Source: Sedimenticola sp. (GTDB lineage: Bacteria > Pseudomonadota > Gammaproteobacteria > Chromatiales > Chromatiaceae). From it: a stretch of 41,683 nt of DNA. A model generated the notes under the pieces. It had not been told where the DNA came from. It did not search any database and worked only from the letters and a program-made list of their open reading frames with translations. A program made the translations under genes and the position numbers. Location: NCBI GenBank assembly GCA_026994195.1, contig JALWRH010000104.1, positions 1-41,683 of the forward strand, read 5' to 3'. Numbering within the stretch: the stretch's first letter is position 1; each line of letters begins with the position of its first letter. Shown one piece after another: positions 1 through 31,651 of the stretch.

Positions 1-385
1 CTTTTTCCTTGTCTTCAGAAAGCTGCAACTGTTCCCGTAGCTTCTGTATGTAATAGCGGTACAACCGGGAAGTGCGGAAATCCTTCAGCTCCTGAAGAAA
101 TGATTCCCGCTGATCCAGTCCCCGGGCGTGCGCTTCCAGACGCAACAAGCGCAAGGCCACCAGGCGCTTGAGCAAGTTACCGCGCAATACGGCCTGCTCT
201 GGCGCGTCCATGGTGTTGAATTGGGTTGCAAAAGGCGATGAACGAACAGCTTTCTCCAGATCAGACGCTGTTACTTTGGTGGGACCGACAGTGACCAGCA
301 CTTCTTCTGCATTCGCTGCAGCCATGCCCGGCAGGAAGATCACCATCAGGAATAAACACAGGAAGGTACGATTCATATACTTCAT
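1..385 (-). CDS. SurA/parvulin-like peptidyl-prolyl isomerase, N-terminal part (cut by window edge)
   Basis: Only the first ~128 residues are present; the frame is open to the window edge. The protein starts MKYMNRTF with a hydrophobic signal peptide ending near MAAANA, so it should act in the periplasm. The mature part (EEVLVTVGPTKVTASDLEKAV..) followed by a Leu/Arg-rich helical segment resembles the N-terminal chaperone region of SurA-type isomerases and the complete isomerase at 27447-28355. The parvulin catalytic domain, if present, lies outside the window. A second in-frame ATG at 376 is an alternative start. It lies downstream of the heptahaem cytochrome on the same strand but is separated from it by a strong terminator, so it probably has its own promoter in the ~60 bp upstream. 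The family call rests on the N-terminal pattern only. Confidence 0.7.
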   Translation of the reverse strand, partial: MKYMNRTFLCLFLMVIFLPGMAAANAEEVLVTVGPTKVTASDLEKAVRSSPFATQFNTMDAPEQAVLRGNLLKRLVALRLLRLEAHARGLDQRESFLQELKDFRTSRLYRYYIQKLREQLQLSEDKEK

Positions 386-516: not shown

Positions 517-2988
517 TCAGTCGTCATCCTCATCAGGAATCTTGCCACCCAGATCCGGCGCAGTTGCGTGCATCCAGGATACGGCAGATTCATAGTCCTC
601 AGAGATATAACGGCCTTTCCACTTGTGGTCATCATCATTCTTGGCCAGGAACGGAACACCGTTCTCGTTCACCTCATGACAGGCGGCACAGCGGAAAGGA
701 CCATGGGAACCATCCGGGTTGTACTGGGGCGCCTGCTTGTAGGTAGTAGTATCGGCCGTGTTCTTGACCGGATACAGACCATGAATGGACTGGTGGCAGG
801 CCTGACAGGCCAGGCCAGCATGACCTTTGGAATAGCGCATCAGGCTGTACTTGCCGGGCTGGTTGATGGGGAATGCCACACCACCCTGGCCTTCGACAAA
901 CGGAGCAGCATGACAGTCCGCACAGTGCGGTGCGCCAGGTGACAGCCAGTAATCCCGGCCATGGGTGGCCGCATCATAGGGCACGGCAGTGGCGCCAGTG
1001 GCACCAGCAGGCAGCTTCAGGCTGGCAACATCCACAGCAGGGTTGGCGGACAATGGCATGACATTGATGTCTCCATCCACGTCTTTGCTGACCATGGGAC
1101 CCTTGCCTTTCAGGGCAATGACAGCAATATCAGGCACAGTGCGTTTCTTGGCCCAAGTCAGGAGGATGCCGGATTTGCCCGGGGTGTCATGCCCCTTGGC
1201 ATCCAGAACCACTTTCGGATCCATGTAGGTGTTGATGAGTTCACTCTTGCTTACACCGATAGCCTTGGCAATCTCGTCCAGAGACTTGTTGCGGATCGTA
1301 TCGCCAGTCTGGGCGAAGGCATTCTTCAGGTTGTCACGCTGATACAGCTCCCGGGACAGCTGGTTGTGGCAGTTGGTGCACCACAGCCCCTTGCCGCCCT
1401 TGCCATTGCCAATCTGGGACACGTTGGCTTGCAGCCATTCACCGATGGCATTCAGATGTTCATCCGTTTCTACACCATCCTTGTCCTTGTCGGGATTGGA
1501 ATGCACGTCACGGCCCACATAACAGCCCCCGGAAGCATCCCGGTTATCCGCATCCGCATAGGCATTCTTACCATCAGGCGTGATGGGATAGCCTTCCATA
1601 CCGCCATCATAACGGTGTGCCGGGTGACAACCCTGGCAGGCGCCAGTACGCCCTTGGCCATCAGCCAGAGGCTTCTTGGTCTGGTGAACTGTATGGATGG
1701 CCTGAGTCAGCGCCGGAATGGTCACTTCCTTGCCTTCCTTGTTCTTGTGGGTGCCCGCTGTCAACACGCCAATGACGTTGTCGGCATGGCATTTCTGACA
1801 AAGAACAGGATCACGGCCCAGACGGTTCATGGTGGAACGGCTGTTCGGATCATAATTCTTCATGAATTCCGTGCCATTGTGATCGTCATGCATTTCCAGG
1901 ATAGAAACAGAAGTGGCCTTCAGATCCGCAATCCAGTCGGATGCGCCCAGGCCTTTCCAGAATGCCCGCTCCTGTTTGTACAGTTTGTACTTGTCACCAT
2001 TGGCCGTTTTATTGGCATGGCAGTTGGAGCAGTTGGGGATATCAATAGGGTTGGTGCCAACGAAGGTGATGGGCTTGCCGCTATGGCTGTCCAGCACCGG
2101 CTTGCCCGTGTCCGCATCCACCAGGCTCACCCAGTTTTCCTGGAAGGGCTGAATATCGCTTTCCACCAGGGTCAGAAGATCCTTGGCGGCGGTACGGTCG
2201 GTAAAGGGCGTCAATGGCAGACCCAGGGCATCCCAGATGCCCGGGTTGGTCAGCACGATAGGCACATTGTCCAGCACAGGCGATTTGGTATAAACGATGG
2301 TGCCTTTTTCACCCGTATAGTGCAGATGCCCGCCACTGATGGGGCTGGGCGCTGCGGCGCCGGCTGGGCCATTGTCCCGGGGAACGGGAACCTGCATCCC
2401 GACAAACAGTTTTTCCTTGTCCGCACTGGTACTCTTGGGATTGGTGCCTTTCAAATCCTTGTAGACATAGAGATGTGTCCAGTAGGCATTGGCAACGCTT
2501 TCATCTTTATCGTACTTGCCATCGCCATTCACATCATAGGGTACGTCCCAGTACTTGAGCTTGTTGCCTTCAGAATAGGTATTGTTAACAAAACCATAGG
2601 CCAGCTTGAAGCGCTTCTTGCCGTCAACGACTACTGTGGGATCTTCTTCATCGGCTTCCAGTAACTCAGGATATTTCTTCTTGCCGGTAGCAGTCTTGAT
2701 GACCTGGGACTGCACTGAGTTGTACGGTGGCAGCACACAGCAATAGGTAAAATCAAAGCCGGTACAGTGCATGCCCAGCTCATAGTTGATGGTGATGTTG
2801 TAGTCGTTTTTGGGTTTGCTGGTGTCTGCCGCAACTTCCGGGCCACCATACATCTTGGAACCCATAGATACGGCTTTTGCGTGTGACTCGGCAGCTTTTG
2901 CCGGCGCTTTCTCAGCAACTTCTTCTTGTGTGGTACAAGCGCCAACTGTCAATGCAGCAACAATAGCTGCGGATAAGGCTTTTTTCAT
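517..2988 (-). CDS. Heptahaem c-type cytochrome lipoprotein
   Basis: 823 residues. The N-terminus is a lipoprotein signal with Cys18 in VGAC (next residue Thr), predicting an outer-membrane lipid anchor. Seven CXXCH haem motifs are visible at about residues 320 (CSNCH), 397 (CQKCH), 451 (CQGCH), 537 (CTNCH), 689 (CADCH), 728 (CQACH) and 767 (CAACH). The first ~315 residues carry no haem motif but have a near-perfect EF-hand loop (residues 152-163, DVNGDGKYDKDE) and a Cys/His cluster (His74-Cys75, Cys83-Cys84). A second Asp-rich loop lies near 500-511, and the C-terminus ends in acidic residues. The start ATG is preceded by a GGGGGT ribosome site. It is divergent from the dihaem cytochrome across a 715-bp spacer and close to a NapC-type quinol dehydrogenase, so a role as respiratory electron acceptor or terminal redox enzyme is plausible. 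I do not recognise a named enzyme; the substrate is unknown. Confidence 0.9.
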   Translation of the reverse strand: MKKALSAAIVAALTVGACTTQEEVAEKAPAKAAESHAKAVSMGSKMYGGPEVAADTSKPKNDYNITINYELGMHCTGFDFTYCCVLPPYNSVQSQVIKTATGKKKYPELLEADEEDPTVVVDGKKRFKLAYGFVNNTYSEGNKLKYWDVPYDVNGDGKYDKDESVANAYWTHLYVYKDLKGTNPKSTSADKEKLFVGMQVPVPRDNGPAGAAAPSPISGGHLHYTGEKGTIVYTKSPVLDNVPIVLTNPGIWDALGLPLTPFTDRTAAKDLLTLVESDIQPFQENWVSLVDADTGKPVLDSHSGKPITFVGTNPIDIPNCSNCHANKTANGDKYKLYKQERAFWKGLGASDWIADLKATSVSILEMHDDHNGTEFMKNYDPNSRSTMNRLGRDPVLCQKCHADNVIGVLTAGTHKNKEGKEVTIPALTQAIHTVHQTKKPLADGQGRTGACQGCHPAHRYDGGMEGYPITPDGKNAYADADNRDASGGCYVGRDVHSNPDKDKDGVETDEHLNAIGEWLQANVSQIGNGKGGKGLWCTNCHNQLSRELYQRDNLKNAFAQTGDTIRNKSLDEIAKAIGVSKSELINTYMDPKVVLDAKGHDTPGKSGILLTWAKKRTVPDIAVIALKGKGPMVSKDVDGDINVMPLSANPAVDVASLKLPAGATGATAVPYDAATHGRDYWLSPGAPHCADCHAAPFVEGQGGVAFPINQPGKYSLMRYSKGHAGLACQACHQSIHGLYPVKNTADTTTYKQAPQYNPDGSHGPFRCAACHEVNENGVPFLAKNDDDHKWKGRYISEDYESAVSWMHATAPDLGGKIPDEDDD

Positions 2989-3248
2989 GGTAACCCCCTG
3001 TTATCGGGATACCTTGAGATTTGACCATCAAAAACAAATTCCTGGATAAGACCAACAATTTCCTGACGGATTCAGGCACACTTCAATTGTTGCCAGCTAG
3101 GCTCATGTTCTATGCACAGGATGTTCGATACTGGGCAACTCAAAGATTCCCGTTTATCATCGAATTTTGATGTCACCGTCCGTTGGCGACACCCCCCTCC
3201 AAATTCGCCTCCTTTGGTATATCTGCATCAATTTATGAAGGCAACGAT

Positions 3249-3273
3249 TGAAGGATAACACTTACATCCTTCA
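3249..3273. promoter_or_regulatory. Inverted repeat, possible operator
   Basis: TGAAGGAT (3249-3256) and ATCCTTCA (3266-3273) form a perfect 8-bp inverted repeat with a 9-bp spacer next to the most AT-rich part of the divergent spacer. The geometry would suit a dimeric regulator, but no known site is recognised. Confidence 0.35.
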
Positions 3274-3514
3274 GGATCAACGAAATATTTCTTTATAAAC
3301 AACATGTTAGAATATTAATAATTAATTATGTTGGCATTTACCTCCGAATTGGAGAAGGCTTTAAAAAATTATGTTCCTGGAACGGGTCACATGACTTGCA
3401 TCAATGACATTCCTGGCTATATGTCCTAATTTTCAAATGGGGTATTGAGGCAGTATTGTATATCCTTGCGACAGTCTGACGGCAGTCATGAAGAAATGTA
3501 GGGGTAAGATACTA

Positions 3515-3550
3515 GGTTGCGCGGCACACCTATCTCTATCCGGCGCAACC
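3515..3550 (+). promoter_or_regulatory. GC-rich hairpin upstream of the dihaem cytochrome gene
   Basis: GGTTGCGC (3515-3522) pairs perfectly with GCGCAACC (3543-3550) around a 20-nt loop, ~150 bp before the ATG at 3704. If transcription starts upstream, this would be a leader hairpin; otherwise it could be a protein-binding palindrome. No known riboswitch class matched. Confidence 0.35.
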
Positions 3551-3703
3551 TGCCCCCCGTTCACTGATCAGGCTGTTCCGAAAACACAGGATTTACCTGT
3601 ATGACAGTGACAGAGAAAACGTCATCTTGCTTAAAGGGCTTTCAAACCCAATGGCATTTCTCTGACACAAAACCAAGAAACTGGAACCAGCAGGATACAA
3701 GCC

Positions 3704-4471
3704 ATGAGCAAAGGCATACTCGAGCACTTTACCTACCCCCTCAGGGGAAAAACCTTTTCATCCTTTCTGGCGGGAGCACTCGTCATAGGTTTTTCAGCAC
3801 CTTCATTGGCTGTGAACACAGATCCCGATGAGTTTGAGGCGGCAATCAAGCTGAAACCCAACCTGGAAAACGGCAAGAGATTGTACAAGGGCAGTTGCAT
3901 TACCTGCCACGGCCCCGAGGGATGGGGTGTGCCTGGCAGCGGTTATCCCCAGATCGCAGGGCAGCTCAAGAATGTCATCATCAAGCAACTGGCCGATTTC
4001 CGCGCCGGTAATCGCGACAACCCCATCATGCGCGCATTTGCCTCCCAGCGCTCTCTGGGAGGCGCCCAGGAGATTGCGGATGTCGCTGCTTATGTAGCCA
4101 GCATGCCCATGACTCCCAACAATGAAAAAGGCTTTCCCCTGCACCTGGAAGAAGGCAAACGCATCTACGACAAGATGTGCGCCGACTGCCACGGTAAGAA
4201 CGGCGAAGGCGACCCTGAAGATCATGTACCCCGTATTCAGGGACAGCACTACAGTTACCTGTCCAGGCAATTCAACTGGATTCGAAATGGCCGCCGCCGC
4301 AACGGTGACGAAAAGATGATCAAGCAGATCAAGAATTTTACGCCCCCGGAGCAGGTGGCCGTTTTGTCCTATGTGGCCAGTCTGAAACCCAAGAACGTCG
4401 CGCCTCCCGGTTGGAGAAACCATGATTTCGACAACTTCGACCGTAGCTGGAGACCCACTCGAATCCGCTGA
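3704..4471 (+). CDS. Dihaem cytochrome c, c4-type
   Basis: 255 residues. A signal peptide ends near APSLA (residue 36), so it is periplasmic. Two similar cytochrome c domains follow. Domain 1 has haem motif CITCH (65-69) with likely axial Met109. Domain 2 has CADCH (159-163) with likely axial Met205. The tandem class I layout and overall length fit the cytochrome c4 family, which shuttles electrons between membrane quinol-linked complexes and oxidases or reductases. The C-terminus is an unusual Trp/Arg/Asn-rich tail (residues 233-255). An AGGAT ribosome site lies about 8 nt before ATG 3704. It is convergent with the ankyrin gene across a shared terminator and divergent from the heptahaem lipoprotein, and it may be its redox partner (inference). 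Confidence 0.9.
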   Translation: MSKGILEHFTYPLRGKTFSSFLAGALVIGFSAPSLAVNTDPDEFEAAIKLKPNLENGKRLYKGSCITCHGPEGWGVPGSGYPQIAGQLKNVIIKQLADFRAGNRDNPIMRAFASQRSLGGAQEIADVAAYVASMPMTPNNEKGFPLHLEEGKRIYDKMCADCHGKNGEGDPEDHVPRIQGQHYSYLSRQFNWIRNGRRRNGDEKMIKQIKNFTPPEQVAVLSYVASLKPKNVAPPGWRNHDFDNFDRSWRPTRIR

Positions 4472-4539
4472 TTGTGAACCCCATACAGTCCCGGGCATCC
4501 CCAGGAAGGGGTGCCCATCACAATCCATACATTCAAAGA

Positions 4540-4572
4540 AATAACGCCATGCAAAGTCTGCATGGCGTTATT
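4540..4572. terminator. Bidirectional terminator between convergent genes
   Basis: A perfect 14-bp inverted repeat (4540-4553 and 4559-4572) with a 5-nt loop lies between the dihaem cytochrome (plus, ends 4471) and the ankyrin gene (minus, ends 4604). The minus-strand side is followed by TTTCTTTG. The plus-strand side is less T-rich (TTATTGCTTT). It probably terminates both genes. A weaker hairpin with one bulge lies at about 4491-4515. Confidence 0.85.
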
Positions 4573-4603
4573 GCTTTCCGGCGTTCCTGGTTGCCGGGTT
4601 ACG

Positions 4604-5548
4604 TCAGTGATCGCCACCTTCGAGCAGTTGCAGACAGCGCTGATCGCGAAAACCGCGGGCAATATCCTTGACGGTTTTCCCCTGCTTGTTCTTGATGCTC
4701 ACATCTGCGCCTCTCGAAATCAGCACCTTGACCACATCCGGCTCCCTCACATCCACAGCTTCGAGCAACGCCGTAGTTCCATCATTGTCCTGGGCATTGA
4801 TATCCGCCCCCTTTTGCAGCAGATAGGTCACGGCTTCCGCATTGCCGCTGCCCGCGGCCCAGATCAACGGTGTTGCACCATCTTTCGAGCGCGCATTCAC
4901 ATCTTCACCCGCTTCCACCAGAGCTTTTACCAGATCCATGTTGTTCCCCGTTTCCACGGCGTACATAAGTGCTGTCTTGCCACGATTGTCTGCAAGATTG
5001 GTTTTTGCCCCATGTTTCAGCAGCAGTTTCACGGTGTTCAAATGTCCGTGTGCAGCGGCCAACATCAGTGGCGTGCGTCCTTCCTTGTCCCGGTCATTGG
5101 GGTTGGCGCCACGAAACAGCAATTGCTCCACCATATCATCGACACCATAGCGGGCCGCCAGAAGCAGGGCGGTAGCCCCGGCACGGGTGCGGGCACTGAG
5201 ATCAGCGCCTCTCTCGATGAGCAAAGCCGTTACTTCTGGTTCATCATTTTCCGCAGCCAGCGTCAGGGCTGAACAATTGGCAACCGTGCGCCGGTTTACA
5301 TCCGCGCCGCGCGAAAGCAACAATGAAACCACGCCCAGATTTCCATTTTCTGCCGCCATCATCAGAGCCGTCTTGCCATACTTGTTGGCGCTGTTCACAT
5401 CAGCCCCTTTGTCCAGCAGCTTTTCCACGGCTTCCACATCACCCACGATAGCTGCCAGGCGAAGCTCCTTGTCCAGGGCGGGATCACCCGCAACAGCGGC
5501 AAAAGACAGCAGCAGCAACAAGGTTCCCAACACTATGCGGATGTTCAT
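4604..5548 (-). CDS. Periplasmic ankyrin-repeat protein
   Basis: 314 residues from the chosen ATG at 5548, which has a GAGG ribosome site 6 nt upstream. An ATG at 5578 is also in frame but would add ten residues before the signal peptide. The signal peptide ends near SFAAVAG, so export to the periplasm is likely. The rest is about nine consecutive ~33-residue ankyrin repeats with the usual G-x-TAL-x-x-AA and LL-x-x-GADVN patterns, giving a curved protein-binding scaffold with no catalytic domain. It follows the NapC-type tetrahaem cytochrome by 35 bp on the same strand, so the two are almost certainly co-transcribed. A role as docking or assembly partner for the cytochromes is suggested by position only. 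Periplasmic ankyrin proteins are known near catalase and redox genes in other bacteria (for example AnkB-like proteins). Confidence 0.88.
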   Translation of the reverse strand: MNIRIVLGTLLLLLSFAAVAGDPALDKELRLAAIVGDVEAVEKLLDKGADVNSANKYGKTALMMAAENGNLGVVSLLLSRGADVNRRTVANCSALTLAAENDEPEVTALLIERGADLSARTRAGATALLLAARYGVDDMVEQLLFRGANPNDRDKEGRTPLMLAAAHGHLNTVKLLLKHGAKTNLADNRGKTALMYAVETGNNMDLVKALVEAGEDVNARSKDGATPLIWAAGSGNAEAVTYLLQKGADINAQDNDGTTALLEAVDVREPDVVKVLISRGADVSIKNKQGKTVKDIARGFRDQRCLQLLEGGDH

Positions 5549-5583
5549 CTGCAACCTCATTCCGTATCTCATGATCATTGCCG

Positions 5584-6138
5584 TCAGCCCGCCTGGGCTG
5601 CCTCCTCATCGTCTTCTTCCGGCTCGTCCGGTTCCTCATGGGCAATGCCCTTGTGACAGTCGATACAGGTCTTGCCTTCGTCCCGTGCCCGCCCATGACG
5701 TTTGCGTGCGCTGCGATCCTGCTCAGCCAGATCCATGGCGTCCCATTTGTGGCAGGACCGGCATTCGCGGGAATCCGTGGATTTCATCTTCTCCCACACT
5801 TCACTGGCCATTTCCCACCGATGGGCCTCATACTTTTCTTTGGTATCCAGGGTACCCAGAATCTCGTGCAGCACATCTTTGTAAGCCATGACTTTGGCCA
5901 CCATCTTGGGACCAAAAGACTTGGGCACGTGGCAGTCCGAGCATACTGCGCGCACCCCGGATGCGCTTTTGTAGTGCACCGTCTCTTTGTACTCTTCCAG
6001 ATTGACCTTCATGGAATGACAGGAAGTACAAAACTCCAGTTCATTCGTATACGAAAGCCCCATGTTGAACAGGCCGGCGAAAACCACGCCTGCAATAAAT
6101 ATGACTATGGCCAGACCCAGACTGATACGTTGTGCCAC
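5584..6138 (-). CDS. NapC/NirT-family tetrahaem cytochrome c (membrane quinol dehydrogenase)
   Basis: 184 residues. One N-terminal membrane anchor (residues ~7-28) is followed by four CXXCH motifs at 37 (CTSCH), 66 (CSDCH), 126 (CRSCH) and 158 (CIDCH), and an acidic C-terminal tail. Single anchor, four haems and ~180-200 residues are the hallmarks of the NapC/NirT/NrfH family, which oxidises membrane quinol and passes electrons to a periplasmic reductase. The start is GTG with a G-rich ribosome site upstream. It heads a two-gene unit with the ankyrin protein. No nitrate, nitrite, TMAO or hydroxylamine reductase gene is nearby, so the partner is open; the heptahaem lipoprotein or c4-type cytochrome are candidates. 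The general role is well supported, the partner is not. Confidence 0.92.
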   Translation of the reverse strand: MAQRISLGLAIVIFIAGVVFAGLFNMGLSYTNELEFCTSCHSMKVNLEEYKETVHYKSASGVRAVCSDCHVPKSFGPKMVAKVMAYKDVLHEILGTLDTKEKYEAHRWEMASEVWEKMKSTDSRECRSCHKWDAMDLAEQDRSARKRHGRARDEGKTCIDCHKGIAHEEPDEPEEDDEEAAQAG

Positions 6139-6355
6139 GGCAATCCCCCCGTTTTTTAACAGTTATTGATTCAATATTATTGACAGAAGCTACCGTAAAA
6201 ATACCGGCTCATTGCAAACCGGAAATCAAACAATCAGCGTCCTGCCATCCAGACTCTCTGGCCTGAACAGTTGCCGAGCCTAGCAAGGACTCAGCATATT
6301 CCCGAACCTCCACATTCGGGTATCATTCCTGAAACCGCTCCTCCACGGTTCCCGG

Positions 6356-7735
6356 TTATTCTGTGTAAACCACCCCTGGCAACCAGGTTGCCAGCTCGGG
6401 CCACCATGCCAGCATACCCAACATGATGAGCTGTATCAAAATAAATGGTACCACACCCCGGTAGATGGCACCGGTGGTGACTTCGGGAGGGGCTACACCG
6501 CGAAGATAGAACAGGGCAAACCCAAAAGGCGGAGTGAGAAAGGAGGTCTGCAGGTTGATGGCGATCATGATACCCAGCCACACGGGGTCCAGCCCCATGG
6601 CCAGCAGGATGGGGCCTACGATAGGTACCACCACAAAAGTGATCTCTATGAAATCCAGAATAAAGCCCAGAAGAAACATGAGCAGCATCACGACCGCCAC
6701 GGCGCCCACGACACCTCCGGGCAGATTGGTGAGCAATTCGTTCACGCGGTCATCCCCGCCAAACCCCCTGAAAACCAGGGAGAACACTGCAGCGCCGATA
6801 AAGATCATGAATACCATGCTGGTGACTTTCACCGTAGCGTGCATCACCTCCCGCAGGGAATCCCAGCTGAGTTCGCGCCGCTGGGCCGCCAGCAGCATGG
6901 CGCCCACGGCTCCCACGGAAGCCGCCTCCGTGGGCGTGGCGATTCCCGCCAGAATAGAGCCGAGTACAGCCACGATGAGCAGCAAAGGCGGCATCAGCAC
7001 CGTGAGCACCCGCCACCACAGGGATTGCTGCTTCCCCTCTTTTTTGGGTGCCGGAGGTACCTTTTGCGGTTGAAAAACGGCCACGCCCAGTATGTAGAGC
7101 AGGTACATCAGAACCAATCCCACGCCAGGAATCACCGCCCCCACGAACAAATCTCCCACGGACACGGTATCCAGATTCCACTTGCCCATGTTCAACTGCG
7201 CCTGCTGGTAAGCGGAAGACAACACATCCCCCAGCAACACCAGCACGATGGACGGCGGAATGATCTGTCCCAGGGTCCCGGAAGCACAGATGGCGCCGGC
7301 CGCTACGGCCGGATCATAGTTGCGCTTGATCATGGTCGGCAGGGACAACAAGCCCATGGTCACCACTGTCGCCCCCACAATGCCGGTACTCGCGGCAAGG
7401 AGCATACCAACCAGCGTCACTGAAATACCCAGCCCCCCGCGCAAGCCGCCAAACAGATCCGCCATGGTATCCAAAAGGCTTTCCGCGACCTTGGAACGCT
7501 CCAGCATCACACCCATGAACACGAACAGAGGCACCGCAATCAGGGTCTCGTTGGTCATCACCCCGTAGAGCCTGTTGGGCAGTGCCTGGAGAAAGGCATC
7601 ATCGAACATTCCCAGCCATTCTCCAAGGAAGGCGAACATCAGGGACACGCCCCCCAGGGTAAAAGCCACGGGATACCCCAGCATCAGTACCAGGGCAACG
7701 ATTCCGAACAAAATGAAAGGCATCCATTCAGCCAT
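6356..7735 (-). CDS. dctM: TRAP transporter large membrane subunit (DctM family)
   Basis: 459 residues, almost entirely hydrophobic with a dozen or so membrane spans, as expected for the large permease of tripartite ATP-independent periplasmic transporters. These use a sodium gradient to import organic acids delivered by a periplasmic binding protein. Conserved features include an N-terminal G-Y-P-V-AF-x-LGG segment and LLSLPTMIKRNYDP in the first half. The length suggests the FcbT3-like (mannitol/chloroaromatic-type) branch. The ATG overlaps the end of the small subunit gene by 8 bp, indicating translational coupling. No dctP binding-protein gene is present in the flanks, so the substrate cannot be inferred. 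Confidence 0.92.
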   Translation of the reverse strand: MAEWMPFILFGIVALVLMLGYPVAFTLGGVSLMFAFLGEWLGMFDDAFLQALPNRLYGVMTNETLIAVPLFVFMGVMLERSKVAESLLDTMADLFGGLRGGLGISVTLVGMLLAASTGIVGATVVTMGLLSLPTMIKRNYDPAVAAGAICASGTLGQIIPPSIVLVLLGDVLSSAYQQAQLNMGKWNLDTVSVGDLFVGAVIPGVGLVLMYLLYILGVAVFQPQKVPPAPKKEGKQQSLWWRVLTVLMPPLLLIVAVLGSILAGIATPTEAASVGAVGAMLLAAQRRELSWDSLREVMHATVKVTSMVFMIFIGAAVFSLVFRGFGGDDRVNELLTNLPGGVVGAVAVVMLLMFLLGFILDFIEITFVVVPIVGPILLAMGLDPVWLGIMIAINLQTSFLTPPFGFALFYLRGVAPPEVTTGAIYRGVVPFILIQLIMLGMLAWWPELATWLPGVVYTE

Positions 7736-8225
7736 GATTCCGCCCTGTCAGAACATGCAGGCTGCGCAGGATCGTTACCAGTCCCTGCAGCATCATGGCC
7801 ACCGGCATGAGCAGCAGCAGGGTCTTGAGCAGGAACACGCCGGGCAGACCGCCTGCCTCCCGGGAACCTTCCACGACCTTCCAGGATTCCGTGACATACT
7901 CCCAGCTGATCCACAGGATAAAGATCATCAGGGGATAGAGCAGCAGCACCGTACCCAGCAGGTTCACCCAGGCGCGCCCCTTGACGCCAAATTTCTGATA
8001 GAAAATATCCACCCGCACATGGCCGTCATGTTTGAAGGTATAGGCGGCGCCGAGCATGAATACCGTGGCATGCAGGTAGGTAATAGACTCCTGCATGGCG
8101 ATCCAGCCCGTATTGAAGGCATAGCGCAACACCACCACCGCGAAGGTGACAAACACCATGAGCAGCGTGCCCCAGGCAATGATGCGGCCGGTGAATTCGG
8201 CAAAAGCTTCCAGCTTGCGGATCAA
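7728..8225 (-). CDS. dctQ: TRAP transporter small membrane subunit (DctQ family)
   Basis: 165 residues with four membrane segments and the typical DctQ pattern of a conserved RYAFNT-x-W-x-x-QE motif after the first helix and a VRVD-containing loop. It resembles FcbT2-type small subunits. It pairs with the large subunit directly downstream. The start is a TTG at 8225: a stop codon lies three codons upstream in frame, the next internal ATG is inside the first helix, and an AGGT ribosome site sits 8 nt before the TTG. It starts 10 bp after the DUF2782 gene, so it may be read from the same transcript. Confidence 0.9.
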   Translation of the reverse strand: MIRKLEAFAEFTGRIIAWGTLLMVFVTFAVVVLRYAFNTGWIAMQESITYLHATVFMLGAAYTFKHDGHVRVDIFYQKFGVKGRAWVNLLGTVLLLYPLMIFILWISWEYVTESWKVVEGSREAGGLPGVFLLKTLLLLMPVAMMLQGLVTILRSLHVLTGRNHG

Positions 8226-8235
8226 GAGCGATTAC

Positions 8236-8577
8236 CTACCAGCGAAACAATATCCACTGGGGAAGCACCACCCCATTGGGATCGTCTTCCCGAGTATCCA
8301 TCTCGCCATCGCCATTCGAATCCATGAGATAGTAGGGAGGACCGACTTTGGGCACGATCTTCACCATGTACAGGCGCCCGTCCACCCGGTATTCGTGAAC
8401 CGTGCGGTTGCCCTCCTGGCGGATGGTGACTTCAGGCTCCAGGGTTTCCCCGTCATCTGCGCCCGGCGGCAGTTGGGAAGCCGCATCCTCTGCCGGGGAA
8501 GCAACAGAAAACAACAACAGGAATAAAACAAGCAGCATCTTCATCAGATTGGCCGGAGCAGATAGTAGAGGACTCAT
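8236..8577 (-). CDS. DUF2782 family secreted small protein
   Basis: 113 residues. After an N-terminal hydrophobic signal (cleavage near SVASPA) comes a small domain with TIRQEGNRTVHEYRVDG, YMVKIVPKVGPPYYL and an Asp-rich stretch (residues ~88-98) ending in LPQWILFRW. This is the conserved pattern of DUF2782, a gammaproteobacterial family of unknown function. The ATG overlaps the LOG gene stop (TAATG) and has a GGAG site within that gene's end, so translation is coupled and this start is favoured over ATG 8544. Function unknown. Confidence 0.82.
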   Translation of the reverse strand: MSPLLSAPANLMKMLLVLFLLLFSVASPAEDAASQLPPGADDGETLEPEVTIRQEGNRTVHEYRVDGRLYMVKIVPKVGPPYYLMDSNGDGEMDTREDDPNGVVLPQWILFRW

Positions 8578-9302
8578 TATAACTCCAGAAGGATTTCCCT
8601 TTCAGCAGCAGAAGGCTCAAAACCGCGTCCGCCGTAATGATCGAAGATACCCTGCACGATAGCCTTGGGTTCATCACAGACCTGGATCAGATCCATGTCC
8701 TCGGGACTGATGGTGCCGGCTTCACACAGGGTATTGCGGAACCAGTCCAGCAGACCGCCCCAGAAACTGCTGTCCACGAGGATAATGGGAATGCGCCGCC
8801 CCTTGCCGGTTTGTACCAGGGTCAGGCATTCCGCCAGCTCATCCAGGGTGCCAAAGCCACCGGGAAGCACCACGTAGGCTGTGGCGTATTTGATGAACAT
8901 GACCTTGCGAGCAAAGAAATGCCGATAGGTCAGGGATACATCCTGGTAAGGATTGCCATGCTGTTCGTGGGGCAACACTATATTCAACCCCACACTGGGG
9001 GAAGGGCCGGCGTGGGCGCCCTTGTTGGCCGCTTCCATGATCCCGGGGCCACCACCACTGATGACGGAGAATCCTGCTTCGGACAACAGCCGGGCCACCT
9101 CCTCTGCCTTCTGGTACCAGGGGTGCTCTACGGGCGTGCGCGCAGACCCGAATATGCTCACGGCAGGGCGGATGCGGCTGAGTTTCTCGAACCCCTCGAC
9201 AAACTCGGCCATGATCTGGAACACCCGCCAGGACTCCCGGTTCAGCTCTGCATCCACGGCCGGAGTACGTGGGCGTATGGAGGAAAAATCGTTCATATGC
9301 AT
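8577..9302 (-). CDS. LOG-family / TIGR00730 Rossmann-fold protein (nucleotide 5'-monophosphate nucleosidase-like)
   Basis: 241 residues with the two signatures of the family: SGGGPGIMEAANKGA in the first half and PGGFGTLDE in the second, which bind the nucleotide phosphate and provide the catalytic Arg/Glu. Characterised relatives (LOG, PpnN) cleave the N-glycosidic bond of nucleoside monophosphates; the exact substrate of this one is unknown. The length fits the compact bacterial type rather than the longer PpnN. The start is ATG 9302, with ATG 9296 two codons later equally possible. It is divergent from rep with only 58 bp between them, and its end overlaps the DUF2782 start, so it leads a likely four-gene unit with the TRAP genes. 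Confidence 0.88.
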   Translation of the reverse strand: MHMNDFSSIRPRTPAVDAELNRESWRVFQIMAEFVEGFEKLSRIRPAVSIFGSARTPVEHPWYQKAEEVARLLSEAGFSVISGGGPGIMEAANKGAHAGPSPSVGLNIVLPHEQHGNPYQDVSLTYRHFFARKVMFIKYATAYVVLPGGFGTLDELAECLTLVQTGKGRRIPIILVDSSFWGGLLDWFRNTLCEAGTISPEDMDLIQVCDEPKAIVQGIFDHYGGRGFEPSAAEREILLEL

Positions 9303-9360
9303 GCTCTACAGGTTAAAATTGCCGCCCTTTCGGCAGAAGTCAGGACAGTCACTATAGGCC

Positions 9361-11367
9361 ATGCACGATCTCAATCCAAGACAGCGCGAAGCCGTGGCCT
9401 GGCTGGACAGTCCCCTGCTGGTCCTCGCCGGGGCCGGATCCGGCAAGACCCGGGTCATCACCCGCAAGATTGCCCATCTGGTGAACAATGTCGGCATGGC
9501 CCCACGCCACATCACCGCTGTCACCTTCACCAACAAGGCCGCCCGGGAAATGAAAGCCCGGGTGGGAAGCCTGCTGCAGGGCAGCAACAGCCGCGGCCTG
9601 AGCATCTCCACCTTTCACACCCTGGGCCTGAACCTGCTGAAACGGGAGCATCAGGCTGCCGGCCTGCGGCCGGGATTCAGCATCCTGGACACCCAGGACA
9701 GTGAGCACCTGCTCAAGGAGATCCTGCTCAAGGACGAACCGGACAACCAGGCCATCAGCCTCGCCCGCTGGCAGATCTCCCAGTGGAAAAACGACCTCCT
9801 CAGCCCTGAGGAAGCCATGTCCAGGGCCGAGAATGAGCTGGCATTGCGTCACGGCCAGATCTACGCCGCGTATCAGCGCGCCCTGGGCGCCTACAATGCC
9901 GTGGACTTCGACGACCTCATCCAGCTGCCGGTGCAACTACTGCGCAATCACGCAGACATCCTGGAACACTGGCAGCACAAGATCCACTACCTGCTGGTGG
10001 ATGAGTACCAGGACACCAACAGCGCCCAATACGAGCTGGTGCGCCTGCTGGCGGGTGTGCGCGGCGCCCTTACGGTGGTGGGGGACGACGACCAGTCCAT
10101 TTACGCGTGGCGTGGCGCGCGGCCGGAAAACCTGGCACGCCTGAAAGAGGATTTCACCAACCTGAAAGTAATCAAACTGGAGCAGAACTATCGTTCCACG
10201 GGGCGCATCCTGAAAGCCGCCAACACCCTCATAGCCAACAATCCCCATGTCTTCGAAAAACGCCTGTGGAGCGAGCTTGGCCCTGGGGAGGAGATCCGCG
10301 TCTTCCAGTGCCGGGATGAAGAGAATGAAGCCGAGCGGGTGGTATCGGAAATCATCCACCAGAAGGTCATGCTCGGACGCCGTTATGGCGACTATGCCAT
10401 TTTGTACCGGGGCAATCACCAGTCACGCATCTTCGAAAAACTCCTGCGCCTGCACAGCGTGCCCTATTTCATCAGCGGCGGCAGCGCTTTCTTCTCGCGT
10501 ACTGAGATCAAGGACATCATGGCCTACCTGCGCCTGCTGGCCAACCCTCATGACGATGCCGCCTTCCTGCGCATCGTGAACACCCCCCGTCGGCAGATCG
10601 GTCCCGGCACCCTGGAACAGCTTTCTGCCTACGCCAGCCAAAGAAGCGTCCCCTTGTTCGAGGCCATAGACGAGCTGGGTATAGGGGAACATCTCAAAGC
10701 GGCCCCCCTGAAACGGCTGCAGCAGTTCCAGGGCTGGATACGTCACCTGTCCCGCCTGGCCCATGAAGACGATGCAGTGAAGACCCTGCGGGAGTTGCTG
10801 GACGATATGGACTATCAGGCCTGGCTGTACCAGACCTCTGGCAATGACAAGGCTGCCGAGAGGCGCTGGGAGAACGTACAGGAACTGGTGGAGTGGCTGG
10901 CGCGCCTGCAGCAGGATGAAATGAAAGACCAGGCACTGGCGGACATGGTCAGCCACCTGGGCCTGATGGATATTCTTGAACGTCAAGACGAAGAATCCAG
11001 TGAAGACCGGGTGAGCCTCATGACCCTGCATGCCGCCAAGGGACTGGAATTTCCCTACGTGTTCCTGGTCGGCATGGAAGAGGGCCTGCTGCCCCACCAC
11101 AGCAGTATCGAGGAAGACAACATCGAGGAAGAGCGCCGCCTCGCCTATGTGGGCACCACCCGGGCCAGGCGCATACTGCACATCAGTTGCGCACGCAAGC
11201 GGCGCAAGGGTGGCGAGGTGGTGGACTGCGAACCCAGCCGTTTTCTCGAAGAACTGCCCCGGGAGGACCTGGTATGGGAAGGTGGGGGACAAACCGATGA
11301 ACCGGAGGAAAAGAAAAAGGCCAGGGGCAAGAGCCACCTGGCCAGTCTGAAAAAGCTCCTGGAATAG
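9361..11367 (+). CDS. rep: ATP-dependent DNA helicase Rep
   Basis: 668 residues, close to the 673 of E. coli Rep. Superfamily 1 motifs are all visible: Walker A GAGSGKT (24-30), motif Ia TFTNKAAREMK, motif II VDEYQDTN (~213-220), motif III GDDDQSIYAWRGA (~241-253), motif IV around LEQNYRST, motif V TLHAAKGLEFPYVFLVG (~554-571) and motif VI EERRLAYVGTTRAR. Rep unwinds DNA 3' to 5' and helps replication forks pass obstacles. UvrD is the closest alternative, but the length and the MHDLNPRQREAV start favour Rep. It stands alone on the plus strand, divergent from the LOG gene. There is no obvious strong ribosome site. Confidence 0.95.
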   Translation: MHDLNPRQREAVAWLDSPLLVLAGAGSGKTRVITRKIAHLVNNVGMAPRHITAVTFTNKAAREMKARVGSLLQGSNSRGLSISTFHTLGLNLLKREHQAAGLRPGFSILDTQDSEHLLKEILLKDEPDNQAISLARWQISQWKNDLLSPEEAMSRAENELALRHGQIYAAYQRALGAYNAVDFDDLIQLPVQLLRNHADILEHWQHKIHYLLVDEYQDTNSAQYELVRLLAGVRGALTVVGDDDQSIYAWRGARPENLARLKEDFTNLKVIKLEQNYRSTGRILKAANTLIANNPHVFEKRLWSELGPGEEIRVFQCRDEENEAERVVSEIIHQKVMLGRRYGDYAILYRGNHQSRIFEKLLRLHSVPYFISGGSAFFSRTEIKDIMAYLRLLANPHDDAAFLRIVNTPRRQIGPGTLEQLSAYASQRSVPLFEAIDELGIGEHLKAAPLKRLQQFQGWIRHLSRLAHEDDAVKTLRELLDDMDYQAWLYQTSGNDKAAERRWENVQELVEWLARLQQDEMKDQALADMVSHLGLMDILERQDEESSEDRVSLMTLHAAKGLEFPYVFLVGMEEGLLPHHSSIEEDNIEEERRLAYVGTTRARRILHISCARKRRKGGEVVDCEPSRFLEELPREDLVWEGGGQTDEPEEKKKARGKSHLASLKKLLE

Positions 11368-12849: not shown

Positions 12850-13452
12850 TTGTTCAAAGCTCCTTCAACCACACCTGTTGCCATGACCGCCAAGAACAAA
12901 GACAAGCCTGAACACATTTCCGATCAGCAGCTGCTGCGCGCCGCACGCTCGTTCGAAGCCATGATGCTCAGCCAGATCGAGATCTCCGCCAAACTGGCGG
13001 ATGATCTCAAACACGCCATCCGTATCGGTATGGTGGTACTGGCGCTGATCGCCATTTCCATCCTGGTTTTACTCTTGACCCTGTCCTCCCAGATCAACCG
13101 CATCTCGGATGTGGTACTGGACATGAACACCAACTTCTCATCCATTACCGTGCGCATGGATCAGATGTCAGGATATATCGACTCCATGGCCAAGCGCGTG
13201 GCGTTGCTGCAACTCATGGATGACCAGACCACCACCATGAAACAGGAGATCAGCACCATCACCTCGGACATGGACCGCATGCGCCAGACGATCAGCGACA
13301 TGGGCAAACAGGTCACCAACGTACGCCATTCGGTGGATGGCATGTCCGTCTCCATCAGCCGCATGGATGACCAGGTACAACTCATGGCCTCGGACATGCA
13401 ACACATGGCCAAACCCGCCCGCACCATCAACAAGATGTTCCCCCTGCCCTAG
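12850..13452 (+). CDS. Small membrane protein with methionine-core coiled coil (A)
   Basis: 200 residues if started at TTG 12850, or 189 from ATG 12883; neither has a clear ribosome site. A cytoplasmic N-terminus is followed by one membrane helix (~58-79) and a long coiled coil to about residue 186. Met makes up 20 of 200 residues, and 13 of the 14 between 92 and 186 fall on two heptad positions spaced 3/4 (92, 106, 113, 123, 130, 141, 144, 151, 165, 172, 179, 183, 186); the others in the core are Ile, Val and Leu. No catalytic domain is visible and I do not recognise a named family. It is followed 9 bp later by a related gene, so the two products probably form a hetero- or homo-oligomeric membrane-anchored rod. 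Function unknown. Confidence 0.75.
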   Translation: MFKAPSTTPVAMTAKNKDKPEHISDQQLLRAARSFEAMMLSQIEISAKLADDLKHAIRIGMVVLALIAISILVLLLTLSSQINRISDVVLDMNTNFSSITVRMDQMSGYIDSMAKRVALLQLMDDQTTTMKQEISTITSDMDRMRQTISDMGKQVTNVRHSVDGMSVSISRMDDQVQLMASDMQHMAKPARTINKMFPLP

Positions 13453-13461
13453 GTACCCGTC

Positions 13462-14001
13462 ATGGCGCAAAAGGAAAAACGCATGTTCATCGATATGGTG
13501 GGGCGCCTGAGCTGGGAAACCCAACTGCACCTGGATGAACGCCAGCACCACTTCCATATTAACAAGATCATCGTCGTCATCATCTCCGTGATACTGATTG
13601 TCCTGGCGGGGATCAACGTGTATTACGTCGCCGTGCTCTATCAGGATCTCAATGGCATCGTGAACAACATGGACTCCATGCATGGCAACATGAAAAAAGT
13701 CTCCAAACGCATGATACACATCACGGACAACGTCAAAGAGTTCGAACATTACATGCGGCGCATGGACAATATCGTGCACAACACTGGTGAGATGGCCGGC
13801 ATGATGCCCTCGATCTCCAGCAGCATGCACCAGATGGAAGCCGATATCACTGTCATGGATGCGGACATGGGCCGCATGGCCACTGGCATGTCCCACGTCG
13901 ACCAGCGCTTTCAACACATGACCCAAGGCGTGGCAGTAATGCGGGTGCATGTCAGGGAAATCGCCCGCCCCATGGGCTCTCTCAATCCGTTCATGCCTTG
14001 A
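13462..14001 (+). CDS. Small membrane protein with methionine-core coiled coil (B)
   Basis: 179 residues, starting nine bases after gene A on the same strand. It has a His-rich cytoplasmic N-terminus (HLDERQHHFH), one membrane helix (~36-55) and a coiled-coil C-terminal region. Met makes up 22 of 179 residues. Between 70 and 101 all Met lie in one 3/4 heptad register (70, 73, 77, 84, 98, 101). After Pro116 the register shifts by one core step (111, 115, 122, 125, 132, 136, 139, 143, 153, 160, 171), as in a coiled-coil stutter. The architecture copies protein A with little sequence identity apart from the pattern, suggesting a paired system. No named family recognised. The stop codon lies in the loop of a 7-bp hairpin. 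Confidence 0.78.
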   Translation: MAQKEKRMFIDMVGRLSWETQLHLDERQHHFHINKIIVVIISVILIVLAGINVYYVAVLYQDLNGIVNNMDSMHGNMKKVSKRMIHITDNVKEFEHYMRRMDNIVHNTGEMAGMMPSISSSMHQMEADITVMDADMGRMATGMSHVDQRFQHMTQGVAVMRVHVREIARPMGSLNPFMP

Positions 14002-14009
14002 CAGGCATG
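13992..14009 (+). terminator. Hairpin spanning the stop codon of coiled-coil protein B
   Basis: CATGCCT (13992-13998) pairs with AGGCATG (14003-14009); the TGA stop lies at 13999-14001 in the loop. Only CCTTTG follows, so as a terminator it is weak. Confidence 0.35.
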
Positions 14010-14054
14010 CCTTTGATCCCACCCACCGCCAGTCCTAAATGCCCCACAATTTCT

Positions 14055-15023
14055 TCAGACAATGGACCGGTAGGATTCTATGATCTCCGGCAACGCAGCC
14101 TGCAGATCATAGCGGGGTCGATAGCCCAGGGTTTCCACCAGAGGACTGGCATCAAACCAGGCTGAAGCGCGCAACTTGTCCAGGCGTTCGCGGGTCAGGG
14201 GCATGGGACGCCGCAATAAGGTCTGCAACAGGCTGCCCGCTCCTGCCCCCAAACTCAGCAGCCAGACCGGAATATGTGCGTGCGATGGCTTTTTCCCCAG
14301 GGCGTGGCAGATCAGTTCATAGATTTCCCGGCTGGAATAAGTGTGCAGATCGGTAACGGCAAATGTCCTGCCCACAGCCTGCGCGTGAACAGCGGACAGC
14401 AACAATGCCTGCACCACATCATCCACATGCACCAGGGAACGCCGTTCGGCAAAATCCGGCAGTGAGGGAAACCGCCCCTGGTCGATAGCGGTAATGAGCT
14501 GCGCAATACTGCCCTGCCGGGAAAAGCCATACACCGGCGCCAGGCGCAGGATCACAGACTGCTTCTCTGCCCGCACCAGGGATTCGGCGGCTTTCTTACT
14601 GCGCGCATACAGACTGACGCTGCCGTCTATGACCCGCGTGGAACTGGCGAATACCAGACGCTGCACTCCGGCCTGCCGTGAAGCCGCCAGCAGGTTGCGC
14701 GTTCCATCGACAGTCACCGGCTGGTGCCGGGGATGCTCTTCGGGATGCCCCTCACCCGCAGCGGGCGCATAACTGGCCAGGTGGAAAACCACCGCTACGC
14801 CCTCCAGTGCTGCATCCAGGGTTTCCGGGACCAGCAGATCCCCATGGAAGACCTGCAGCCCCTCGGGAGGCTGTTCCGGGGCACTGCGGAACAACCCCCT
14901 GGGTTCCACCCCTGACGCCAGCAACACCTGCAGAAAACGGCTGCCTATGCGTCCTGATGCGCCGGTAACCAGCACCTGTTTTCCACGCAGGCGGCCAGCC
15001 AGAGCCTGGAGCTGATCCGTCAT
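14055..15023 (-). CDS. NAD-dependent epimerase/dehydratase (extended SDR), surface sugar biosynthesis
   Basis: 322 residues from ATG 15023, which overlaps the glycosyltransferase stop as ATGA; an upstream in-frame start at 15104 would sit inside that gene. The N-terminal GASGRIG (21-27) is the NAD(P)-binding glycine motif and Tyr139-x-x-x-Lys143 the catalytic pair, with FASS just before. The overall layout is that of extended short-chain dehydrogenases such as UDP-hexose 4-epimerases and WbpV-like proteins, which change the stereochemistry of nucleotide sugars. The exact sugar is unknown; it might instead be a reductase. Coupling to a glycosyltransferase points to polysaccharide or O-antigen synthesis. 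Confidence 0.87.
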   Translation of the reverse strand: MTDQLQALAGRLRGKQVLVTGASGRIGSRFLQVLLASGVEPRGLFRSAPEQPPEGLQVFHGDLLVPETLDAALEGVAVVFHLASYAPAAGEGHPEEHPRHQPVTVDGTRNLLAASRQAGVQRLVFASSTRVIDGSVSLYARSKKAAESLVRAEKQSVILRLAPVYGFSRQGSIAQLITAIDQGRFPSLPDFAERRSLVHVDDVVQALLLSAVHAQAVGRTFAVTDLHTYSSREIYELICHALGKKPSHAHIPVWLLSLGAGAGSLLQTLLRRPMPLTRERLDKLRASAWFDASPLVETLGYRPRYDLQAALPEIIESYRSIV

Positions 15024-31162: not shown

Positions 31163-31651
31163 CTACTTTTCCGCCAACCACCAGTCTCCTTGGGAAAAGA
31201 TCCACTTTTCCTTGAGCAGACTCTGGGTTTCACGGCCCCGCATGGCTTCGACGGCACCAATATAAATGTATGAAAGATCAATAGTTACCGTGCAAATCTT
31301 CTCTTCGCATTCCACATCTTTCACGCTGGCCGTCTTGCGCAGTATCGCTCCACTTTTCATGCGATTGGCGTAAACCGGCATGGGCTTGAGCTTGCGCGTG
31401 GCGGGGGGGAGGTAGGTATAGGCTTTCTCCCAATCCTGCGCTATCAATGCATTCATATGTTCCATTGCCCGCTGCTTTACCCGCTGTTCCTTGGTCTCTG
31501 TTGCAGACTGTGTCACATTTGCAACATTTTGTTTGATTTCTGCTTGCTTCCCATCTTTTTCGCTGCATCCAGCAGACAGGAAAACAGCCGCCCCTAGCAA
31601 AAACCCTAATACCCGACGTGCGTTATTCATGCTAAATTTCTCGATTGTCAT
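31163..31651 (-). CDS. Outer-membrane lipoprotein coupled to the type II secretin gene
   Basis: 162 residues. The start ATG 31651 overlaps the gspD stop (ATGA) and has AGGTGAT 7-8 nt upstream; a later ATG (31630) lacks a good site. The lipobox LSAGC gives lipidated Cys29 followed by Ser, predicting outer-membrane placement. The mature part is a charged helix (~40-60) and a small domain (MNALIAQDWEKAYTY, LPPATRKLKP) that resembles NTF2-like folds, with Cys115 and Cys120 able to form a disulfide. It is the last gene of the secretion operon. It might assist secretin targeting or assembly (pilotin-like) or be a secretion-linked envelope protein; no known pilotin family is recognised. Confidence 0.8.
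   Translation of the reverse strand: MTIEKFSMNNARRVLGFLLGAAVFLSAGCSEKDGKQAEIKQNVANVTQSATETKEQRVKQRAMEHMNALIAQDWEKAYTYLPPATRKLKPMPVYANRMKSGAILRKTASVKDVECEEKICTVTIDLSYIYIGAVEAMRGRETQSLLKEKWIFSQGDWWLAEK

Follow-up and report, generated by a model that had tools for sequence, protein, structure and literature searches.

Which redox reaction is served by a secreted protein with seven haem-binding motifs whose gene lies beside those of a NapC-family cytochrome, an ankyrin-repeat protein and a dihaem c4-type cytochrome? The question is raised by contig JALWRH010000104.1 of the Sedimenticola sp. assembly GCA_026994195.1, a stretch of 41,683 nucleotides referred to here as the window, which is one entire contig (C104) of a 3.0-Mb genome in 126 contigs. 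The heptahaem protein, for which we use the working name hep, is encoded at positions 517-2988 of the minus strand. An initial annotation had joined the four genes into one respiratory module, with electrons running from quinol via NapC and c4 to a haem-rich lipoprotein at the outer membrane. Comparison with related loci instead resolves the stretch into two side-by-side, separable modules and not one operon: module A consists of NapC, ankyrin protein and c4, module B of hep and a peptidyl-prolyl isomerase, often joined by a thioredoxin-like protein. From gene content, conservation, neighbours and co-occurrence we infer catalysis, direction and substrate, and the answer that we prefer, tentatively and with somewhat less than even confidence, is a periplasmic oxidoreductase that has a folding helper of its own, trades electrons with c4-type cytochromes and probably oxidises a reduced inorganic sulfur compound. 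Hep may represent an enzyme of periplasmic energy metabolism not described before, and a search of the open-licence literature yielded no description of it or of its operon.

Two separable modules

A scan of a genome collection with a 16-protein alignment returned 278 related stretches, and the best 80 of these, which share 57–93% identity (best segment) and come from at least three phyla, were kept as the 80 hep loci; because many contigs or flanks are short, neighbour counts over these loci are lower bounds. The most constant neighbour of hep is a gene for a SurA/parvulin-type peptidyl-prolyl isomerase, found immediately 3′ of hep in 59 of the 66 loci that extend 1.5 kb or more downstream, when only the gene directly after hep is counted. 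It lies upstream of hep in L071 and L113, and by the next-gene test L082, L112, L119, L130 and L131 have none. Full-length relatives of the isomerase have about 430 residues, and the window copy is cut ahead of the isomerase domain; in the one relative tested (L076, 12537-13829) a PPIC-type domain was detected (PF00639, 52.5 bits versus a cut-off of 21.7). A gene for a TlpA/ResA-like thioredoxin occurs on either strand in 44 of the 80 loci, its Redoxin domain being confirmed in one representative, and ccm genes come after the hep module in L052, L053, L055 and L056.

Module A has a history of its own. The congeners G005 (L151) and G009 (L152) carry the genes for c4, ankyrin protein, NapC and the transporter subunit DctM in the same order as the window, with NapC 84% identical, and no hep was found in either genome, only a distant paralogue. 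It is this persistence of module A that leads us to separate the modules. In L152 ccm genes stand directly past c4, where the contig of L151 ends. The draft genomes G034, G043 and G025 have hep and the NapC-ankyrin pair on separate contigs, and there (L153-L155) the pair adjoins an FccA-like dihaem gene, the flavoprotein gene FccB and c4; FccB of L153 exceeds the cut-offs of PF09242 and PF21706, and the proteins of the other two loci are 69% identical. Methylobacter marinus A45 (G127) carries hep and has no NapC-family match at E <= 1e-15. The proposal of a single module did not withstand these comparisons, and the expectation that the four genes would be neighbours in relatives held only in part. 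C4-type genes accompany hep in 40 of the 80 loci (the c4 query set included one COX1 protein, so that long "c4" hits are COX1, and the 12 loci with COX2 each also have a hit of c4 size) and NapC, of two lineages, in 22, but the ankyrin gene in only 14.

The features of the window that matter here are:

2-385, minus strand: SurA/parvulin-type peptidyl-prolyl isomerase, N-terminal 128 amino acids, gene truncated by the contig end
427-439, minus strand: terminator-like hairpin with T run, located between the hep and isomerase genes, a consensus match only
517-2988, minus strand: hep, 823 amino acids, seven CXXCH motifs, secreted, lipobox-like N-terminus
2989-3703, no strand: intergenic region of 715 bp separating the divergent hep and c4 genes, from the layout of open reading frames
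3704-4471, plus strand: dihaem c4-type cytochrome, 255 amino acids, two CXXCH motifs, divergent from hep and convergent with the ankyrin gene
4604-5578, minus strand: ankyrin-repeat protein, 324 amino acids, signal-like N-terminus (by eye), second gene of the NapC-ankyrin pair
5584-6138, minus strand: NapC/NirT-family (Cytochrom_NNT) tetrahaem cytochrome, 184 amino acids, GTG start, four CXXCH motifs
6356-7735, minus strand: DctM of a tripartite ATP-independent periplasmic (TRAP) transporter, a genus-level neighbour not counted in the cytochrome modules
7728-8225, minus strand: TRAP transporter DctQ, likewise a genus-level neighbour outside the cytochrome modules

Open reading frames and Pfam confirm the positions and haem counts first given for the four genes, and within the window the set has no gene for a known reductase as its direct neighbour, as the initial annotation had stated; the isomerase fragment (2-385) and the DctMQ genes (6356-8225) had been overlooked. 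The NapC-like protein matches PF03264 with 232 bits (cut-off 24.1), carries four CXXCH motifs, stays below the cut-off of the NapC/NirT subfamily TIGR02161 (225 versus 310.6 bits) and is presumed to be membrane-anchored and quinone-linked. Its gene has the same direction as the ankyrin gene, with 5 bases between them, and the ankyrin repeats were confirmed by Pfam. In the dihaem protein PF00034 and PF13442 each match two stretches, corresponding to two class I haem domains, and no NCBIfam model exceeds its cut-off. The genome has three NapC-family genes, and as its NapA locus on contig C49 possesses a NapC of its own, Nap does not depend on the NapC of the window, and the idea that the two are partners was dropped. 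At that NapA locus (L148, G000:C49) NapC (12883-13377) is likewise followed by an ankyrin-repeat-like open reading frame (13420-14874), so the pairing may be a wider habit.

The hairpin between hep and the isomerase gene may tune the expression ratio of the two; the scan found 9 terminator-like sites, compared with a mean of 8.5 in shuffled sequences. The 715-bp gap presumably holds the promoters of both hep and c4. FNR-like boxes were too weak to be retained: 24 sites match with at most two mismatches, two of these within the gap, and shuffled sequences average 14.8. DctQ and DctM, with no DctP gene directly adjoining, are kept next to NapC throughout the genus, and DctM stays there even in genomes without hep. 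Farther along the contig lie type II secretion-type genes, for a GspD-like secretin and a T2SSF domain protein (31648-33951 and 39513-40721). Searches of viral and plasmid collections gave no match.

Conservation and distribution of hep

In hep of the window the CXXCH motifs stand at residues 320, 397, 451, 537, 689, 728 and 767, and there is no further CH dipeptide. A beta-rich non-haem part extends to residue 319, with the invariant motif MHCTGFDFxYC, and is followed by the haem region. Of 78 members that are complete or almost so, 77 keep all seven haem motifs; the remaining one, L111, is truncated by a contig end. In an alignment of 66 members the invariant residues include H74, C75, C83, H367, H432, H435, H458, C489, H496, H688, H723, H736 and H807, and ten invariant histidines lie outside the CXXCH motifs. 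The N-terminus of the window protein contains a lipobox-like stretch (...LTVGAC). A strict lipobox pattern matches 27 of the 78 members examined and 8 more appear lipoprotein-like by eye, the remainder having other secretion signals or a missing N-terminus; the label of a heptahaem lipoprotein, and with it the outer-membrane placement initially proposed, fits this genus but not the whole family.

Among the family collections searched, hep has no specific cytochrome match. The only Pfam match over cut-off is the generic haem motif Cytochrome_C7, no flavin domain was found in the same search, NCBIfam returned no family, and sequence searches of the PDB gave no convincing match. The MtrC/MtrF domain PF22113 remains below cut-off in the window protein (28.6 versus 30 bits) and narrowly passes it in the relative from L076 (30.6 bits), and hep was not accepted as an MtrC-like surface cytochrome. 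A structure model built from the 66-member alignment, without haems, reached a mean predicted local distance difference test score (pLDDT) of 71.5 and a predicted template modelling score (pTM) of 0.76 and shows the beta-rich portion ahead of the first haem. Foldseek found no match in the PDB at E <= 0.001 either with this haem-free full-length model of moderate confidence or with a model of the N-terminal domain (mean pLDDT 63.4). We do not claim a copper fold: similarity of the full-length model to copper-bound P19 (6wee, E 0.8) and FetP (3nrq, E 5.5) was too weak, and neither appeared among the 50 of 97 matches listed for the N-terminal domain model.

Nine-haem proteins are the nearest relatives outside the family. 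Distant paralogues (L049-L051; 22–26% identity to hep) have in common with hep the sequence LGMHC (LGMH74C75), six haem sites and distal-type histidines. They lack C83/C84, haem 5 of hep and the roughly 60-residue insertion that hep has between haems 3 and 4, which carries D481-N-R, C489 and R493-D-x-H496. L047 and L048, closer to hep at about 43% identity, do possess the insertion, C83/C84 and haem 5. A nine-haem LGMHC paralogue is encoded in the window genome itself (contig C114; L051, 8091-10613), others occur in congeners with and without hep (L158-L164), and the genome of a methanotrophic symbiont (G131) has such a paralogue in split or second-copy form. A tentative lead is that Methylococcus cytochrome c553O, on whose expression there is published work (PMC4831470), may be related to these paralogues.

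A search for kin gave matches at E <= 0.001 in 26 of 92 genomes, many of them merely distant paralogues, and 65 relatives are 60–93% identical to the window protein. Carriers include Sedimenticola/Thiolapillus, tubeworm symbionts, Gallionellaceae, Sideroxydans, Sulfuricella and Thiotrichaceae, as well as many methanotrophs, Nitrospinota and Bacteroidetes. Among them are the isolates Methylobacter marinus A45 (L102) and Methylobacter sp. BlB1 (L108) and a metagenome-assembled genome labelled Thiolapillus brandeum (L054). In one Sedimenticola-like genome (G056; contigs C115, C311 and C245; L045, L046) hep is present as several copies or fragments, and one of these adjoins NapC-ankyrin-c4. In a hep tree made by a quick method without bootstrap, the proteins of Gallionellaceae, Sulfuricella and relatives form a clade within the gammaproteobacterial hep clade, which suggests that hep has moved from one class to another. 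In a tree of 32 NapC proteins a gammaproteobacterial lineage, mostly found with ankyrin, is distinct from the hep-adjacent lineage of Gallionellaceae, Sulfuricella, Rhodocyclaceae and relatives. That hep became paired again with a NapC of different lineage after its apparent move favours a working link between hep and NapC in which NapC is not obligatory.

Neighbours, sulfur metabolism and the direction of electron flow

The gene order at hep loci bears on the direction in which electrons pass. In nine methanotroph loci (L098, L099, L101, L102, L104, L106, L107, L108 and L110) COX2, COX1, c4 and hep follow each other on one strand, encoding what we take to be a B-type haem-copper oxidase, and this order argues that electrons leave hep; the COX2 gene was found in 12 of the 80 loci altogether. 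In L106, from the methane-oxidising symbiont of Gigantopelta, the oxidase-c4-hep order (~4200-10000) is broken by transposase-like open reading frames (by eye), and the hep open reading frame starts late. Gallionellaceae have the order c4, NapC, hep, isomerase, thioredoxin. The hep set of L076 is flanked by aprBA-sat and by a molybdoenzyme set that we call SoeABC-like from context, its large subunit exceeding no NCBIfam cut-off, and L072 is similar in part. In four Nitrospinota loci (L119, L121, L122 and L127) Dsr electron-transfer genes lie upstream of hep, FccB is near hep in L088 and L092, and an octahaem tetrathionate-reductase-family gene is located elsewhere in L085. Between the Dsr genes and hep of L119 (8837-9775) a protein of 312 residues with a signal-like start is encoded, with no Pfam match at E <= 0.001.

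The genomes that carry hep suggest a link to sulfur metabolism. In 50 hep genomes, those of 50 of the 80 loci picked for spread, dsrA exceeds its cut-off in 31 and is present as a fragment in one more. In a class sample, an even set of 274 genomes in which dsrA was scored at E <= 1e-80, dsrA occurs in 92 genomes and hep in 11; nine of these 11 have dsrA, compared with 83 of the 263 others (Fisher p = 0.001, kinship uncorrected). The 11 include congeners, and G105 and G173 are probably one genome, as their SoxB coordinates are identical. SoxB was searched in the 18 hep genomes without dsrA, the window's own genome and two genomes of the class sample; four of the 18 have SoxB over cut-off and seven others FccB. 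Within the class sample FccB is found in 8 of the 11 hep genomes and in 76 of the 263 others. The window genome contains DsrA, SoxB, FccB and a SoeA-like gene 77% identical to its counterpart in L076, and an octahaem gene lies a few kb past the latter (L149).

In the mechanism that we propose, the N-terminal domain of hep and the insertion of about 60 residues would together make up the place where the substrate is oxidised, and their invariant His, Cys, Arg and Asp residues could build the active site. Electrons would run along the haem chain to a c4-type dihaem cytochrome, although flow in reverse is possible. From c4 they would pass to the haem-copper oxidase in the nine methanotroph loci and, in sulfur oxidisers, via NapC to the quinone pool, with module A connecting periplasmic haem proteins to that pool. 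The isomerase and the thioredoxin-like protein would see to the folding of hep and maintain its non-haem cysteines. A more specific version, which we consider rather unlikely as a whole, makes hep a periplasmic dehydrogenase of a class not yet described, with seven haems, a non-haem His/Cys site that possibly holds copper, and a parvulin plus thiol-redox helper of its own for folding. It would oxidise a reduced sulfur compound, pass the electrons via c4 to oxygen or the quinone pool, and be common to free-living and symbiotic sulfur oxidisers, methanotrophs, relatives of iron oxidisers, Nitrospinota and Bacteroidetes.

Several observations weigh against a sulfur-oxidising hep. The majority of dsrA genomes in the class sample (83 of 92) lack hep, and FccB is barely commoner with hep (22 of the 50 hep genomes) than in the class sample (84 of 274). 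Seven of the 50 hep genomes, namely two Methylothermaceae, one Crenotrichaceae, one Methylomonas, one Nitrospinia and both Bacteroidetes, have neither dsrA nor SoxB over cut-off nor FccB. Thiolapillus brandeum, the group's named species, is described as using sulfur, thiosulfate or tetrathionate for growth, with either oxygen or nitrate, but as not growing on sulfite (PMC4136832), which weakens sulfite as the substrate of hep. The Methylothermaceae loci L090 and L117 have no oxidase genes within 10 kb upstream of hep. At the Bacteroidetes locus L130 hydrogenase genes are present, and the usual partners (isomerase, c4) are missing from the vicinity. Nitrogen genes stand at some loci, NapA adjoining hep in L093 and L103 and a gene for an HAO-like octahaem protein, which reaches no NCBIfam cut-off, being present in L078, L103 and L105. 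The putative catalytic residues are proposed from conservation, and since L047 and L048 share them, the insertion and C83 are not unique to seven-haem proteins.

The main rival is flow in the opposite direction, from quinol via NapC and c4 to hep, which would then act as terminal reductase or as an outer-membrane or extracellular outlet for a sulfur oxyanion, a metal or another acceptor. This chain, which the initial annotation had favoured, is retained here as one option, an unlikely one: NapC and c4 do recur next to hep, the genus has a lipobox, a CymA-PdsA pair is known to be encoded together with MtrCAB (PMC8805035), and PdsA is the top NCBIfam match of the Gallionellaceae c4 partner, if far below cut-off (148 versus 330 bits). 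On the other hand, more than half of the members examined have no lipobox, the MtrC/MtrF domain match lies below cut-off, and Methylobacter marinus has hep in the oxidase-c4-hep order without any NapC-family match. Less probable still is a non-catalytic hub or wire that would serve any enzyme that the periplasm happens to contain (Dsr, Soe, Fcc, Nap or an oxidase). Such a role would suit the haem-rich architecture, the ten invariant histidines outside CXXCH, which could be distal ligands, and neighbours that vary among sulfur, nitrogen, hydrogen and oxygen enzymes, but a wire would hardly need the strong conservation beyond the haem sites or the non-haem N-terminal part with about 260 conserved residues and invariant His and Cys. 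The insertion is missing from the distant nine-haem paralogues, and the pattern of C83/C84, insertion and haem 5 in comparison with these paralogues makes us prefer an enzyme over a wire.

The nitrogen genes named above could indicate a nitrogen oxide or hydroxylamine as the substrate of hep, and COX1-family oxidases can handle nitric oxide. Such genes occur at few of the 80 loci, and no relation of hep to NrfA or HAO in sequence or fold was found in the PDB, which renders this substrate improbable. We likewise give little credence to the idea that the closeness of NapC-ankyrin-c4 to hep is accidental, the former serving only a sulfide dehydrogenase or another enzyme and hep using other carriers. 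While module A does persist without hep (L151, L152) and adjoins FccAB in L153-L155, NapC and c4 adjoin hep also in Gallionellaceae and relatives, where NapC is of a different lineage, and c4-type genes do so in methanotrophs.

Whichever way electrons flow, hep very likely does important chemistry, as indicated by 57–93% identity across at least three phyla, an isomerase that is usually its own and frequent neighbours from quinone or oxygen respiration. Should hep prove to be a dehydrogenase of sulfur compounds, periplasmic sulfur oxidation in vent symbionts and sulfur oxidisers would gain a step, and the question would arise why methanotrophs tie the same protein to a terminal oxidase. The question is testable because isolates carry hep.

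Comparison with known systems

The combination of a NapC-family protein, a dihaem shuttle and a large multihaem protein resembles CymA/NapC-PdsA-MtrCAB (PMC8805035), whereas the hep module also occurs without NapC. MtrC and OmcA have about ten haems compared with seven in hep, which stays below the Pfam cut-off and has no NCBIfam match. The profile of the octahaem tetrathionate reductase family (TIGR04315) is not matched by hep. Flavocytochrome c sulfide dehydrogenase (FccAB/SoxEF) accompanies NapC-ankyrin-c4 in other genera (L153-L155) and is found close to hep in L088 and L092, but consists of a flavoprotein and a dihaem subunit, and no flavin domain was found in hep. Electron-transfer sets with an isomerase gene of their own include Uet, with UetB (PMC10734462), and MofABC, with MofB (PMC5566968); as far as the descriptions go, Uet differs from hep by a porin and other cytochromes and Mof by a multicopper oxidase.

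A further parallel is MccA. The mcc cluster of Wolinella succinogenes has a dedicated peptidyl-prolyl isomerase gene and a link to quinone, and sulfite reductases of the MccA type bind eight haems, including one at an unusual CXnCH site. The enzyme is described as an octahaem-copper sulfite reductase (PMC6703420). Hep shares with it the large multihaem redox protein, the isomerase gene (59 of 66 loci) and the quinone link, and differs by its seven CXXCH motifs without an eighth CH site and by its occurrence in sulfur and methane oxidisers. Homology of hep to MccA was rejected, and a relation to NrfA or HAO was not seen either, as neither a convincing PDB sequence match nor, with the haem-free model of moderate confidence, a Foldseek match (E <= 0.001) was found. 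Among multihaem systems, the hep-isomerase-thioredoxin unit is a widespread member and, going by the open-licence literature searched, apparently an undescribed one.

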